A stretch of 32,602 nt of DNA, from positions 1 to 32,602 of the forward strand of contig JAHFDP010000050.1 in the NCBI GenBank assembly GCA_023248955.1, read 5' to 3'. Numbering within the stretch: the stretch's first letter is position 1; every line of letters begins with the position of its first letter. Both the position numbers and the translations under genes were made by a program. The notes under the pieces are model-generated. The model ran no database searches, was not told the origin of the DNA, and saw nothing but the letters and a program-made list of their open reading frames with translations. Below, piece by piece: positions 3,375 to 32,602 of the stretch. This DNA is from Deltaproteobacteria bacterium (GTDB lineage Bacteria; Myxococcota; Myxococcia; Myxococcales; JAHFDP01).

Positions 3375-5948
<2,574 letters not shown>

Positions 5949-7429: not shown

Positions 7430-8251
7430 GTGCGCGCCCTTTCGTTTGCCGTCGCTCTTTCGCTTTCGTCGTCGGTCTTCGCCGATAACCTCCGTTCCGA
7501 TCTGCGCATCGACGCGCCGCTCGCAGCTACCGCGGCGGCCGCTTGGATCGGCTCGGAACTTTTGAAATCCCATTTCGCACCCGCGCGGTGCCGCTGGTGT
7601 GATCGCAACGCCGACGGATCCGATGCGCTCAATCCACTCGACGCGGGCGTGCGGGGGGCTTTGCGCTGGAACAACGTCGGCGCGGCGGACACGCTGTCCA
7701 ACGTGATGGCGTTCGGTGTCGCGCCGATCTTTTCGATGGGATTCGAGGCGCTCGTCGCTGCGCACGACGACGCGCTTACTAACGTCCCTGTCGATCTCAT
7801 TCTCATCGCAGAAGCCGTGGCGCTGGCGCAGGACGCCAACCAGATCACGAAATTCATGGTCGGTCGCGAACGTCCTTTCGTGCACGCACTAACGCCGGAC
7901 GCGCGCGCCAACACTGCGCAACCATCCGACAACAATCTGTCGTTCTACTCGGGCCACGCCACCTTTACGTTTGCGCTCGCGGCGGCCGCGGGAACCATCG
8001 CCCACCTGCGTGGCTACCGCCTGTGGCGCTGGGTTCTTGCGAGTGGGTTCGTCGCGGCCACGGCCACGGCCTATCTCCGAATCGGCGCCGACAAGCACTA
8101 CTTCACCGACGTGACCACTGGCGCGCTGCTCGGCTCCGCGTTTGGATTCGCCGTACCCATGCTTGCCCACGGCACCAACGAACCGACGGCATTGACGCGG
8201 CCGCTGCTCGTTCCGAACGTCGGCGGTGCAACACTCGCTTGGCTTTTCTGA
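7430..8251 (+). CDS. PAP2-superfamily phosphatase, exported or membrane-bound
   Basis: 273 aa with all three PAP2 phosphatase signatures: KFMVGRERP (KX6RP, Lys141-Pro149), YSGH (173-176) and RIGADKHYFTD (RX5HX3D, with Arg217, His223, Asp227). The family hydrolyses lipid phosphates such as phosphatidate or undecaprenyl diphosphate, with the active site facing the periplasm. A signal peptide covers about residues 1-18 (SVFA then DN), followed by several hydrophobic helices. A CRWC pair at 54-57 could form a disulfide. The start is GTG 7430; no better upstream start is seen. The substrate cannot be told from sequence. Confidence 0.87.
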   Translation: MRALSFAVALSLSSSVFADNLRSDLRIDAPLAATAAAAWIGSELLKSHFAPARCRWCDRNADGSDALNPLDAGVRGALRWNNVGAADTLSNVMAFGVAPIFSMGFEALVAAHDDALTNVPVDLILIAEAVALAQDANQITKFMVGRERPFVHALTPDARANTAQPSDNNLSFYSGHATFTFALAAAAGTIAHLRGYRLWRWVLASGFVAATATAYLRIGADKHYFTDVTTGALLGSAFGFAVPMLAHGTNEPTALTRPLLVPNVGGATLAWLF

Positions 8252-28143: not shown

Positions 28144-30000
28144 TCACTCCCGTAATGCCTTGCGCAGAGCAGTATAACTCGAGTCGTCCACGGCAACGAA
28201 TCCGCTGACCCGTTCGACTTTTCCGAGAAGCGGAACGCCCAGATCACGCTCGGGGTTGAAGGCCAGCAACGCGCGTTTGAGGAGCGCGGAATCCTCGGGT
28301 CGCGCCGACGCCCCCGCACAAACCGCGTCGTTGGGCGAGCGACCCGTCACGGCGAGGACGCGCATGCGACCCACGGAGATTCCCGCGCGATCGGCGGTGC
28401 GGTAGGCGCTGCTGTAAGTCGCGCCGGCGTCGCAGAGACCGGCGTTGAGATCGCGCAGCACCTCGAGATGATTTCCGGAAAAACGCACGCCGGCCAAATC
28501 GTGATCGGGATCGACGCCCGCCGCGCGCAGCGCAGCGCGCGGGAACACATAGCCGGTGGTGGAATTGGGATCGCTGTAGCAGAAGCGCCGTCCCTTGACC
28601 TCCGACACCGAATTGATTGGCGATGACTCCAGCACGAGGAGCACGCCCGAATCGCCCGTGCTGCCCTCGAAGAGCTCCATCGCCAACGGTTCGATGTGAT
28701 CGTGCTGAGCGCGCGTGCGGACGTAAAGATAGGGCGGCAGCGAAGCGTAGGGAATTTGCCCAGAGGTGAGACGCTCCGCCAACTCCGCGTAGGTCTTGGC
28801 GACGATCAAGTGGATCGGGCGTCCCGTGTGGCGCTCGAGGTAGCGACGCCACGGCTCATACTCGTCGAGCACGACTGCGGCATCGAGCGTCGGGGGCAGA
28901 CCGATGGTGAGCGGTTCACCCTGCAACACCACGGCGGGCGCGCCGCGCATGAAAAATCCGAGTGCCAACGCTCCCGCCAAGAGCCCGAGGAGCGCACCCA
29001 TGCGCGACCATTTCGCCCGGCGATTTTTCGACGGACATAGCGCTTTGGCGATGCTCGCACGCGTGCGGGCATGGGTTTCACCAAGCGCATCCAACACGAA
29101 CGTGGCCACCGCGCGATCGGTCGGAGCGAGTCCGGCGTCCTTCGCCGCGGCGAAAATCTGCTGGCGAAAAAGCTCCGCCGTGGCCGTCCGCCGCGCGGGA
29201 TCTCGCTCGAGCGCGCTCGACAAAGCTTGCGCCAACGCCTCGGGGACGTCCGGCCGCGACGCGCGCAAATTCGGCAACGTCGCTTGAAGCACGGCCTGCA
29301 TGGTCGACAGATCGGTGTCGCGCTTGAAGAGCGGCTCGCCGGTCAAAAGCTCCCACAGCGTGATGCCCAGCGCGAAAACATCGGAGCGGCGATCGAGCGC
29401 CTCTTGCCGCACCTGCTCGGGCGAGAGGTAGTGCAACTTGCCTCGAATACCACCGGTGCGTGTGAGCTCATCCTGCGCGGTGGCCTTGGCGATGCCAAAA
29501 TCGAGGAGCTTCACGCGCCCCGTGTCGTTCACCATCAGGTTGTGCGGCGAGATGTCGCGGTGGACAAGGCCCAGCAGCGCGCCGGCGGAATCGGTCAGTT
29601 CGTGCGCAGCCTGCGCCCCGCGACAAGCCTGGACCATGATGGCCACCGCCACCTCGACCGGAATCTGGCGGTGGTGGTAGGAACTTGCCGCCAGAAGATC
29701 CTTGAGCGTGCTGCCGTCAACGTACTCCATGACTAGGAACGCAGCGCCGTCGGCTTCGACGAATTCCAAAATGTCGACGATGTGCGGGTGGCGAAGCTGC
29801 GCCGCAAAACGCGCCTCCTGCCGAAACTGCTCCGCGAACGTCGGGTCGGCGGCCAGATGTGGCAACAGCCGCTTGATGGCCAGCGGCTGCGTGGCGCCAC
29901 TTTCCCGCGCCAAGAAAATCTCCGCCATGCCGCCGGATCCCAGGCGCGCCAAGAGCACGTAGCGGCCAAGGCGGCGTTCAGAAAATGAATCCGTATTCAT
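28144..30000 (-). CDS. Transmembrane Ser/Thr kinase with PhnD-like periplasmic binding domain
   Basis: 618 aa. Residues 14-290 are a Hanks-type kinase: Gly loop GSGGMAEIF (21-29), Lys43, helix-C Glu62, catalytic loop HRDISPHN (147-154), DFG (167-169) and SPEQ in place of APE. A basic stretch (KNRRAKWSR) precedes one membrane helix (about 334-352). Residues 363-615 resemble the PhnD/phosphonate-binding solute-binding fold: TIGLPP, YEPWRRYLERHTGRPIHLIVAKTYAELAERL, a PYASLPPYLYV patch, and CYSDPNSTTGYVFPRAALR, the family's DPxSTxG motif. Topology places the kinase inside and the sensor outside the cytoplasm. This is a one-component receptor kinase; ligand and substrate are unknown. The gene lies between a rhodanese and a PilT-like gene, 36 and 25 bp away. 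Confidence 0.9.
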   Translation of the reverse strand: MNTDSFSERRLGRYVLLARLGSGGMAEIFLARESGATQPLAIKRLLPHLAADPTFAEQFRQEARFAAQLRHPHIVDILEFVEADGAAFLVMEYVDGSTLKDLLAASSYHHRQIPVEVAVAIMVQACRGAQAAHELTDSAGALLGLVHRDISPHNLMVNDTGRVKLLDFGIAKATAQDELTRTGGIRGKLHYLSPEQVRQEALDRRSDVFALGITLWELLTGEPLFKRDTDLSTMQAVLQATLPNLRASRPDVPEALAQALSSALERDPARRTATAELFRQQIFAAAKDAGLAPTDRAVATFVLDALGETHARTRASIAKALCPSKNRRAKWSRMGALLGLLAGALALGFFMRGAPAVVLQGEPLTIGLPPTLDAAVVLDEYEPWRRYLERHTGRPIHLIVAKTYAELAERLTSGQIPYASLPPYLYVRTRAQHDHIEPLAMELFEGSTGDSGVLLVLESSPINSVSEVKGRRFCYSDPNSTTGYVFPRAALRAAGVDPDHDLAGVRFSGNHLEVLRDLNAGLCDAGATYSSAYRTADRAGISVGRMRVLAVTGRSPNDAVCAGASARPEDSALLKRALLAFNPERDLGVPLLGKVERVSGFVAVDDSSYTALRKALRE

Positions 30001-30036: not shown

Positions 30037-30456
30037 TCACTTCTTGAGGAGATATTCGTAAGCGCGCCCCGCCGGACGGCCCGTCTCCACCGGAAGGTTC
30101 TCGTCGAGCCAGCCACGCTCGATCACCTGCCCTTGCGCATCACGCGCGCCGCCGAATCCGCAGCGCTGATCGACGATGCTCGCGTAGCCGCTCCGCTCGA
30201 GAATCCCCGCGGCATTGAGCGATCGGCCACCCGACTTGCAGCCCACCACGATCTTGGCGTCCGTGGCGAACACGCTGGTCACCACGCGCACAAAATCTGG
30301 ATTGGGCGAAAGCCCCACCGGCCCGGCGTTCAAGAGCGGAATGTTCAGCGCTCCTGCCGGATGCCCCGCTTGAAACTCCGGCTCCGAGCGAACGTCCAGG
30401 TAGGTCCAGCCATCCTCCATCAACGCTTTGGCTTCCTTGGGTGAAACACGTTTCAT
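30037..30456 (-). CDS. Single-domain rhodanese (sulfurtransferase-like)
   Basis: 139 aa. The fold motifs are YLDVRSEPEFQAGHPAGALNIP and the active-site loop VVGCKSGGRS with Cys73. Rhodaneses move sulfur from thiosulfate or persulfides, and some act as phosphatase-like or signalling domains. The ATG at 30456 has GGAGG five bases upstream, which fixes the start; longer reading frames into the upstream gene are rejected. It has no signal peptide, so it is cytoplasmic. It sits 26 bp after the PilZ gene and 36 bp before the kinase gene, in one apparent operon. Why a rhodanese is there is unclear. Confidence 0.9.
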   Translation of the reverse strand: MKRVSPKEAKALMEDGWTYLDVRSEPEFQAGHPAGALNIPLLNAGPVGLSPNPDFVRVVTSVFATDAKIVVGCKSGGRSLNAAGILERSGYASIVDQRCGFGGARDAQGQVIERGWLDENLPVETGRPAGRAYEYLLKK

Positions 30457-30482
30457 GTTGCCTCCGAAAAAAGTCGATGTAT

Positions 30483-31187
30483 TTACCTTCGCATAAAAGC
30501 GTGCGGCAGCGCCGGTTCGAGCACTTTGCCCCCTCGGCAACACAGCGCCGGGTGCGCAACTTCCCGCGTCAGCTGCCACGCTTCGCGTGCCGCTTCGAAA
30601 AGTCGCGTGGAGGCCTTGCGCCACTCGGGATCGCTGCGCAAAAGCGTAATGCCGGCTTCGCGATCGCCCACCCGCGCCAGGCGCCCGCGACCGAGCTCCG
30701 TGGGCCAGCCGCGGGGCGGCAGAAAAAGGCTCAGCTCCAGTTCGCTGCCCACCGTGCCGAGCTCACCGACGCCCGTCAGCCGCATCCCCATCATACTAAC
30801 GTCGAATATGCGGCCCAGCATCGGTTCTGGCTGCCCTGCCCTTTTCACGCGCACCATCACATCGGTAGCGATGCGGCCGTGGCGTCGCTCGGCCGTGCTC
30901 TGCTCGCGCCAGCGTTGAAGAAACCCCGAGGGAAACACCACCCAGTATCCGGGAAGCGCGCCGGTTTCTCGGGTCGCCACCGTGCCTCGGAGCGTACTTT
31001 TCTGCTCGTTCGTCGCGAAGGAGATTTCCAGCAAGATGCGCGTTCCCTCGGCGAACGTCGCCAAATTTGCGCTCCAGAAGAAAACCGCGCGGCGATCGAT
31101 GACGTGAAAGTGGCGCTCCAACTGATCGGGCGCATCGAATCGGTAGCGGAGGAGCTGCGCGGGGCTGGACGTCGAGGCGACCGGCAA
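30483..31187 (-). CDS. PilZ-domain protein
   Basis: 234 aa. Residues 97-190 hold a PilZ domain with RRHGR (101-105) and DVSMMG (129-134), matching RxxxR and D/NxSxxG that contact cyclic di-GMP. Residues 10-90 form a second, degenerate PilZ-like or YcgR-N domain (FFWSANL, ILLEISF, YWVVFP). The C terminus is a basic helix with a CC pair. TTG 31187 is chosen because GGAGG lies five bases before it; the frame open to 31301 would run into the hemY promoter region. It is cytoplasmic and divergent from hemY by 95 bp. In the gene order PilZ-rhodanese-kinase-PilT it is the likely c-di-GMP effector for surface motility. Confidence 0.85.
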   Translation of the reverse strand: MPVASTSSPAQLLRYRFDAPDQLERHFHVIDRRAVFFWSANLATFAEGTRILLEISFATNEQKSTLRGTVATRETGALPGYWVVFPSGFLQRWREQSTAERRHGRIATDVMVRVKRAGQPEPMLGRIFDVSMMGMRLTGVGELGTVGSELELSLFLPPRGWPTELGRGRLARVGDREAGITLLRSDPEWRKASTRLFEAAREAWQLTREVAHPALCCRGGKVLEPALPHAFMRR

Positions 31188-31209
31188 ACGAACCTCCGAA
31201 GGGCTGCCG

Positions 31210-31218
31210 ATTCTAGCA
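31210..31218 (-). promoter_or_regulatory. Candidate extended -10 promoter for the PilZ operon
   Basis: On the minus strand TGCTAGAAT matches the extended -10 form TGnTAnAAT. Transcription would begin near 31203, about 16 bases before the TTG start, with GGAGG in the leader. No good -35 is visible, as is common for extended -10 promoters. Confidence 0.4.
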
Positions 31219-31282
31219 GAGGACCGGCGCTGATCTCGCGACTTCTTCGCAGCGCGGATTTGTGCGAATCGTACGCCACGCA

Positions 31283-32602
31283 ATGTCCTCGTCTCCGCCA
31301 ATCGTGGTCATCGGCGCCGGTGTGGCTGGGCTTTCCATCGCCGCAGCATTGCGGGCGCTCGGGCGCGCAGCGATCATTTTTGAATCGAGCGATCGTGCGG
31401 GCGGAAAGATCCGCTCGATTTGCGACGGCGATTTTCTCCTCGAAGCCGGTCCCGCCGGATTCGTGGACACGTCGCCTGAAGTCCAAGCGCTGCTGACGCG
31501 CTTGAACCTTCAATCGCGAATCATTCGGAGTGGCGCCGACGCACAGCGGCGTTTTCTCTACCTCGATGGTCGACTCGTTCCAGCGCCGGACTCGCCGTTA
31601 TCTGCCGCGCGCAGCGTAGTCCTTTCGCGGTCCGCACGACTACGTGCGCTGGGCGATCTGGTTCTTCCGCGTGGACCGTCGGGACTTGGCGAAGAGGAGA
31701 GCGTTGCGGATCTGGCGCGTCGCCGACTTGGCAGCGACGCAGCCGATCGGATCATCGCACCGTTCGTGTCGGGCCTCTTTGCCGGCGATCCCGAAGCGCT
31801 CTCCGCGGCCGCCGCCTATCCGAAGCTCGCCGCCGCCGAGCGCGATCATCGCAGTCTGCTCGTTGCCGCATGGCGCGCGTGGAAGGAAGAACGATCGCGG
31901 CCAGGCGCGCTGTCGACGCACGTGTCTTTCGTAGATGGAATGCAAGAGCTGACCAACGCGCTGGGGCAGGCTGCGGGAGCTTCACTCCATCTCGGCGCAA
32001 CCGTGAAGCGCATCGAAAAACGCGGCGATATATTCGAAATATATGTCGAGGAAGCTGGTGCGGTAAAAACTCTCACCGCTGCGGGCGTCGCGCTGACCGT
32101 GCCCGCGTTTGTCGCCGCTCCGCTCGTCGCCCCGCTCGACGCCGCGCTCGCCGATGCAGCCGCGGCAATTCCCTACGCTCCAATCGCCGTAATACATTTG
32201 GCTTACAATCGATCAGCGGTACGCCATCCGCTTGACGGCTATGGGTTTCTGGCGCCGGCGGGCCAAGGCTTGCGAATTCTCGGCGCGGCGTTCTCGTCGA
32301 ACATTTACGACGGCCGCGCCCCAAGCGGGACGGTGCTCTTCTTGGCGCGATTGGGCGGTGCCAACAATCCGGATTTGGCCGCGCTGCCCGAGGACGCGCT
32401 CATCGCTACGGTGCACGAAGATCTCTCGCGCGCGCTCGGCATCGATGCACCGCCGATCTTTGCACGCGTCTTTCGCCATCCGCGCGCCATGCCGCAATAC
32501 ACGCTCGGACATCTCAAGCGCGTGGCCACGATCGAAGCAGCGGAACGCCGTGTTGGAAAAATCGCGCTCGCGGGAAATGCGTATCGCGGACTCGCGCTCA
32601 CC
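31283..32602 (+). CDS. hemY: Protoporphyrinogen oxidase (HemY-type), 3' end outside window
   Basis: 440 codons from ATG 31283 run open to the window edge, so the C terminus is missing. The FAD-binding Rossmann motif is VIGAGVAGLSIAAAL (9-23) with FESSDRAGGKIRS (33-45). FLLEAGPAGFV, APFVSGLFAGDPEALSAAAAYPKL and the C-terminal RVFRHPRAMPQYTLGH and GNAYRGLALT are HemG/HemY family signatures. The flavoenzyme oxidises protoporphyrinogen IX to protoporphyrin IX in haem synthesis, at the membrane. I see no ribosome site before the ATG. It is divergent from the PilZ gene. A short AT-rich island is at 32028-32044. Confidence 0.92.
   Translation, partial: MSSSPPIVVIGAGVAGLSIAAALRALGRAAIIFESSDRAGGKIRSICDGDFLLEAGPAGFVDTSPEVQALLTRLNLQSRIIRSGADAQRRFLYLDGRLVPAPDSPLSAARSVVLSRSARLRALGDLVLPRGPSGLGEEESVADLARRRLGSDAADRIIAPFVSGLFAGDPEALSAAAAYPKLAAAERDHRSLLVAAWRAWKEERSRPGALSTHVSFVDGMQELTNALGQAAGASLHLGATVKRIEKRGDIFEIYVEEAGAVKTLTAAGVALTVPAFVAAPLVAPLDAALADAAAAIPYAPIAVIHLAYNRSAVRHPLDGYGFLAPAGQGLRILGAAFSSNIYDGRAPSGTVLFLARLGGANNPDLAALPEDALIATVHEDLSRALGIDAPPIFARVFRHPRAMPQYTLGHLKRVATIEAAERRVGKIALAGNAYRGLALT

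Follow-up and report, generated by a model that had tools for sequence, protein, structure and literature searches.

The locus raises two questions: whether a Ser/Thr kinase and a solute-binding domain encoded together form a genuine receptor, and what such a receptor would bind. The window analysed here is the whole 32,602-nucleotide stretch of contig JAHFDP010000050.1 (Deltaproteobacteria bacterium). Sequence comparison and structural modelling suggest that the gene product is probably a one-chain transmembrane receptor Ser/Thr kinase with a periplasmic flytrap for a small anion, which senses its ligand and does not transport it.

Gene integrity and domain organization

The kinase/PhnD-like receptor ORF occupies positions 28144-30000 on the minus strand, with the ATG at 30000 and the stop codon at 28146-28144. 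It has 618 codons for 618 amino acids and no internal stop, whereas the plus-strand translation of the same positions is broken by stops. The initial annotation had described one protein of 618 residues at these positions; it gave no strand, and the description holds for the minus strand. Its alternative of two separate genes, like a frame error, was ruled out by the single uninterrupted frame and by the same fusion in relatives. A MAG chimera was also ruled out, as the fusion is common to about 20 genomes. The Pfam E-values given below and the retention of the fusion in other genomes rule out a chance joining. The fusion is therefore neither a chance nor an assembly product. The main features are as follows:

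28144..30000, minus strand: gene of the 618-residue kinase / membrane helix / PhnD-like receptor (ORF, Pfam and NCBIfam matches, homologous fusions)
29155..29961, minus strand: Hanks-type Ser/Thr kinase domain, residues 14-282 (Pfam, motif positions)
29413..29502, minus strand: activation segment, residues 167-196, with T180 and T182 as candidate autophosphorylation sites (putative site assignment)
28939..29004, minus strand: predicted single membrane helix, about residues 333-354 (hydropathy, charge asymmetry, segment present in relatives)
28174..28905, minus strand: PhnD-like (PF12974) type II periplasmic binding domain, residues 366-609 (Pfam, AlphaFold, Foldseek)

The N-terminal domain matches Pfam Pkinase PF00069 over residues 14-282 (E=2.3e-43). 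It contains the Gly loop (21-26), K43, E62, HRD (147-149), N154, DFG (167-169), and SPE (193-195). By sequence and modelling it is a complete RD-type Hanks kinase, with the Lys, Glu, HRD, Asn, and DFG residues from which catalytic activity is predicted. The intact Ser/Thr kinase first recognized from Lys43, HRDISPHN, and DFG was thus confirmed, and the HRDISPHN string was found. The NCBIfam PASTA-kinase model aligned with nothing outside the kinase portion and scored 268.6 bits, below its cut-off of 450. Residues 172-185 of the activation segment have low confidence in the predicted model.

Hydropathy analysis showed one hydrophobic segment between the kinase and the outer domain, near residues 333-351; a hydrophobic segment lies at the matching place in all 15 rows of alignment A3. 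The 15 residues preceding it include five K/R and those following it 0-1, which would place the kinase inside and the C-terminus outside. The one membrane helix of the initial annotation agrees with both hydropathy and charges. The predicted layout is that of a receptor kinase: a single helix between the domains, a cytoplasmic kinase, and a C-terminal flytrap domain in the periplasm. The full-length model kept both domains, and their relative placement was uninformative (pTM 0.55; linker pLDDT about 50).

The outer domain matches the Pfam Phosphonate-bd family PF12974 at residues 366-609, covering the full model (1-242 of 242) with E=4.7e-54 and 183.8 bits against a cut-off of 27. The phosphonate/phosphite-binding hallmarks noted earlier (TIGLPP and DPNSTTGYVFP) are present. 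The NCBIfam model TIGR01098, for general phosphate/phosphite/phosphonate binding proteins, was barely passed (112.4 vs 112.05 bits), and the PhnD equivalog cut-off was missed by the 618-residue protein (94.5 vs 261.1 bits).

The initial annotation had proposed comparing the predicted structure of residues 363-615 with PhnD, PtxB, and HtxB. Residues 357-618 were modelled by AlphaFold2 with 15 relatives (mean pLDDT 93.2, pTM 0.87), and a PhnD-like fold was obtained rather than another fold. The best Foldseek match in the PDB was Pseudomonas stutzeri PtxB (5o37, E=4.6e-26, TM 0.87), followed by ArrX, AioX, other PtxB, HtxB, PhnD, and GpxB. HtxB is a hypophosphite binder with Trp52 next to its ligand. 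The sterol binder BstB was a clearly poorer match (TM 0.69-0.70). Thus, membership in PF12974 is supported by both the whole-model Pfam match and the fold. In the viral structure library, kinases were among the named top matches, none with both domains recognized.

Distribution, ancestry and neighbouring genes

A search with the whole protein gave 17 matches in the genome of the window (3.83 Mb, 95.6% complete). Except for the gene under study, these cover the kinase part and the linker, and none extends past residue 373. The fusion is the sole PF12974 protein above the cut-off in this genome. In a survey of 195 phylum genomes, the kinase and the binding domain share one frame at 15 loci, the window's among them; five further loci belong to the same clade but lie at a contig end or are interrupted. 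In one Archangiaceae MAG (L071, about 7700-7760), the frame is broken once, by a stop codon that separates the kinase from the membrane helix; the gene may be split there, or the sequence may contain an error. A scan of 84,980 GTDB species, made with a 5-row alignment (the first alignment was too diverse) and two peptide patterns specific to the fusion clade, found 15 fusion loci; independent fusions outside Myxococcota would be missed by these patterns. The titled records were uncultured Myxococcales/Deltaproteobacteria-type MAGs, plus one bacterium. Together, the survey of the phylum and the clade-specific scan, which answer the domain-architecture search suggested at the outset, give about 20 genomes carrying the fusion; all are Myxococcota, and those with record titles are uncultured MAGs. 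Hidden fusions were also sought in the long open frames that accompany more distant PF12974 matches. No kinase motif was seen in the stretches inspected, and many of the long frames were out-of-frame GGDEF genes.

In the phylogenetic tree of binding domains, the 20 fusions form one clade against 29 standalone rows (support 100/100). The fused kinases (18 rows, 16 distinct) also form one clade (support 100/99) when compared with paralogues from the window's genome. Because the kinase halves and the binding halves each form one clade, a single old fusion with mostly vertical inheritance is the simplest reading of these sequences.

The fusion gene in the window is preceded by rhodanese and PilZ-like genes and followed by a gene for a type II/IV secretion (PilT-like) ATPase. 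The rhodanese and PilZ-like genes (30037-31301, minus strand) end 36 bases before the kinase start on the same strand. A rhodanese/PilZ-like/kinase operon is possible in the window, although the arrangement is not kept in relatives. Comparison of the window with 15 related loci showed no consistently recurring neighbour, and a conserved operon partner was thus ruled out. At another locus (L075), a second PF12974-like gene (4712-5518, minus strand) is convergent to the fusion gene.

A component of a PhnCDE-type ABC transporter would be expected together with the permease PhnE. None of the 20 fusion-bearing genomes (that of the window and 19 others) has PhnE above the cut-off. A clear PhnE (E<=1e-40) occurs in 23 of 195 phylum genomes, and against this background its absence from 20 genomes is suggestive only and may be due to chance. 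The window's genome also has no PhnJ (C-P lyase).

The standalone PhnD-like relatives form two groups in the tree, one of which is nearer to the fusions in sequence identity. In this nearer group, 14 of 17 distinct members immediately follow a GGDEF gene and in most cases overlap with it (L035, L037, L038, L040, L041, L043-L048, L050, L053, and L061). Such a pair is perhaps a diguanylate cyclase controlled by a binding protein. From this proportion, sensing rather than transport seems common for the PhnD-like domain in this phylum.

The binding pocket and its likely ligand

The pocket was analysed by alignment to solved structures, with the roles of residues and cap taken from PMC5700983. Conservation was counted in alignments A1 (18 rows) and A4 (16 rows). 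The pocket positions and two further conserved residues are:

28789..28791, minus strand: Tyr404, anion-head ligand position (Te_PtxB Y55), invariant (alignment; PMC5700983)
28555..28563, minus strand: Ser480-Thr481-Thr482, anion-holding motif (Te_PtxB S130-T131-S132) (alignment; PMC5700983)
28468..28470, minus strand: His511, anion-head ligand position (Te_PtxB H160), invariant (alignment)
28327..28329, minus strand: Asp558, cap position (Te_PtxB Tyr208, E. coli PhnD Asp205) (alignment; PMC5700983)
28579..28581, minus strand: Cys474, invariant in the fusion clade, putative disulfide partner of Cys523
28432..28434, minus strand: Cys523, invariant in the fusion clade (conservation)

The equivalents of Y404, S480, T481, T482, and H511 hold the three anion oxygens (PMC5700983). 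A check of the Ser/Thr/Tyr residues of the anion site, as advised initially, showed that Y404 and S480-T481-T482 are conserved, together with H511. Y404, S480, T482, and H511 are invariant (18/18 in A1 and 16/16 in A4), and T481 is kept in 17 of 18 and 16 of 16 rows, respectively. The hinge Tyr is Y426 in the window protein and mostly Phe in relatives. Cys474 and Cys523 might form a disulfide in lobe 2.

The ligand-contact residues are invariant, whereas mean column identity in the domain is 58-62%. This contrast makes it very improbable that the binding domain senses no ligand and instead serves a constitutively active kinase as a static anchor or protein-interaction module, a role with which the lack of conserved neighbours at the window and 15 related loci would agree. 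A ligand-sensing flytrap is the preferred reading.

A receptor specific for phosphite or 2-aminoethylphosphonate (2AEP), as the motifs first suggested, would fit the retained head-group residues and the rank of PtxB as best PDB match. However, the cap residues differ. Te_PtxB needs Y208 and D22 for phosphite (PMC5700983); Asp558 and Thr371 stand at these positions, Asp558 in 16 of 18 rows of A1 and 15 of 16 rows of A4. A phosphite receptor is thus not supported. Asp558 and Thr371 are the residues of the E. coli PhnD cap (D205 and T14), but at the position of PhnD E177, the residue that contacts the 2AEP amino group (PMC5700983), the fusion has Ser531. This position, located via AioX Tyr212 (PMC5908839), is Gly, Ala, Asn, or Thr in relatives. 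A 2AEP receptor of the E. coli PhnD type is therefore not supported either. The window's genome also lacks a phosphonate permease above the cut-off and PhnJ, and specificity for phosphite or 2AEP is considered improbable.

The PhnD-like fold might instead be reused for a non-phosphorus ligand, such as an arsenic or sulfur oxyanion, selenate, a sterol, or another compound. Arsenite or arsenate is the ligand of AioX and ArrX (PMC5908839), both of which rank near the top of the matching solved structures; PhnD-like domains also occur in TtrS and in its counterpart for thiosulfate (PMC5408782); and BstB binds sterols (PMC10942540). The lack of PhnJ and PhnE above the cut-off in the window's genome would also be compatible with such a ligand. 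However, AioX Cys106 aligns with the invariant Pro422, the Ser-Thr-Thr and His head site is that of PtxB and PhnD, and the BstB fold is much poorer as a match. A non-phosphorus ligand therefore appears rather unlikely.

A small phosphorus-type anion is most likely the ligand class. The best estimate from the aligned residues would be an anion head resembling phosphonate or phosphate, with the tail left undefined. The initial proposal of a receptor for phosphonate, phosphate, or a related anion agrees with the conserved head site; the phosphite cap Tyr, the AioX Cys, and PhnD Glu177, which would narrow it to a named ligand, are absent. Because the fold family also includes glycerol-phosphate binders, arsenic sensors, and sterol binders, this ligand assignment is tentative. 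With different cap residues, no second PF12974 protein above the cut-off in the window's genome, and no PhnE above the cut-off in the 20 fusion genomes, the protein looks like a sensor for which only a ligand class can be proposed.

Proposed mechanism and comparison with known systems

In the proposed mechanism, the periplasmic flytrap would bind a small anion whose head resembles phosphonate or phosphate and whose tail exceeds a hydrogen atom in size. As the two lobes close, two receptor chains might be paired or oriented differently across the membrane. Mutual phosphorylation of the kinase domains on the activation segment (T180/T182) would follow, and the activated kinase could phosphorylate further cytoplasmic targets. 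We tentatively suggest, as one possibility, that this PhnD-like flytrap gates a Hanks kinase within one chain, that an organophosphorus-type ligand not imported by PhnDCE serves as a dedicated signal rather than an uptake cue, and that these proteins form an undescribed old receptor family of Myxococcota.

Few bacterial Ser/Thr kinases have a known stimulus, and the sensor here belongs to a family with structurally understood pockets. Direct ligand screening and tests of kinase control by pocket mutants would thus be possible. The fusion and the GGDEF-linked relatives suggest that one anion-binding fold has been reused for several signalling outputs in Myxococcota.

PknB-type Hanks kinases have an N-terminal kinase, a single membrane helix, and a C-terminal extracellular sensor. 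The fusion has the same order; however, the outer part consists of PASTA repeats in the former and of a two-lobed solute-binding fold here. In some actinobacteria, proteins are annotated as fusions of a kinase with substrate-binding domains of other families.

The initial statement that solute-binding domains normally feed ABC transporters was overstated, given the 838 sensor histidine kinases with PhnD-like sensor domains in UniProtKB (PMC5408782) and the sensing proteins AioX and ArrX (PMC5908839). TtrS and ThsS likewise combine a PhnD-like periplasmic sensor and a kinase in one chain (PMC5408782), but they are histidine kinases acting with a response regulator, whereas the fusion has an N-terminal Hanks kinase and a C-terminal sensor. 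The NCBIfam TtrS model gave 17 bits over 59 residues. AioX, ArxX, and ArrX, which include top structural matches, use a PtxB/PhnD-type binding protein for sensing rather than transport (PMC5908839). They differ in being separate binding proteins acting on an AioS-type histidine kinase, and the arsenite Cys106 is absent from the fusion. In GlnH-GlnX-PknG, an outside solute-binding protein also controls an inside Ser/Thr kinase (PMC6069109, PMC9769921); these are separate proteins with an amino-acid ligand, while the fusion is one chain with another binding-protein family. PtxB, HtxB, PhnD, and the glycerol-phosphate binder GpxB share the fold and the anion-head residues (PMC5700983, PMC12718374), but deliver their ligands to ABC transporters, whereas the fusion is tethered to a kinase and has another cap. 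The open-access literature searched contained no receptor that joins a PhnD-like domain and a Hanks kinase in one chain. The principle is already known; the novelty lies in having a Hanks kinase as the output on the sensor's own chain, within an old Myxococcota family.
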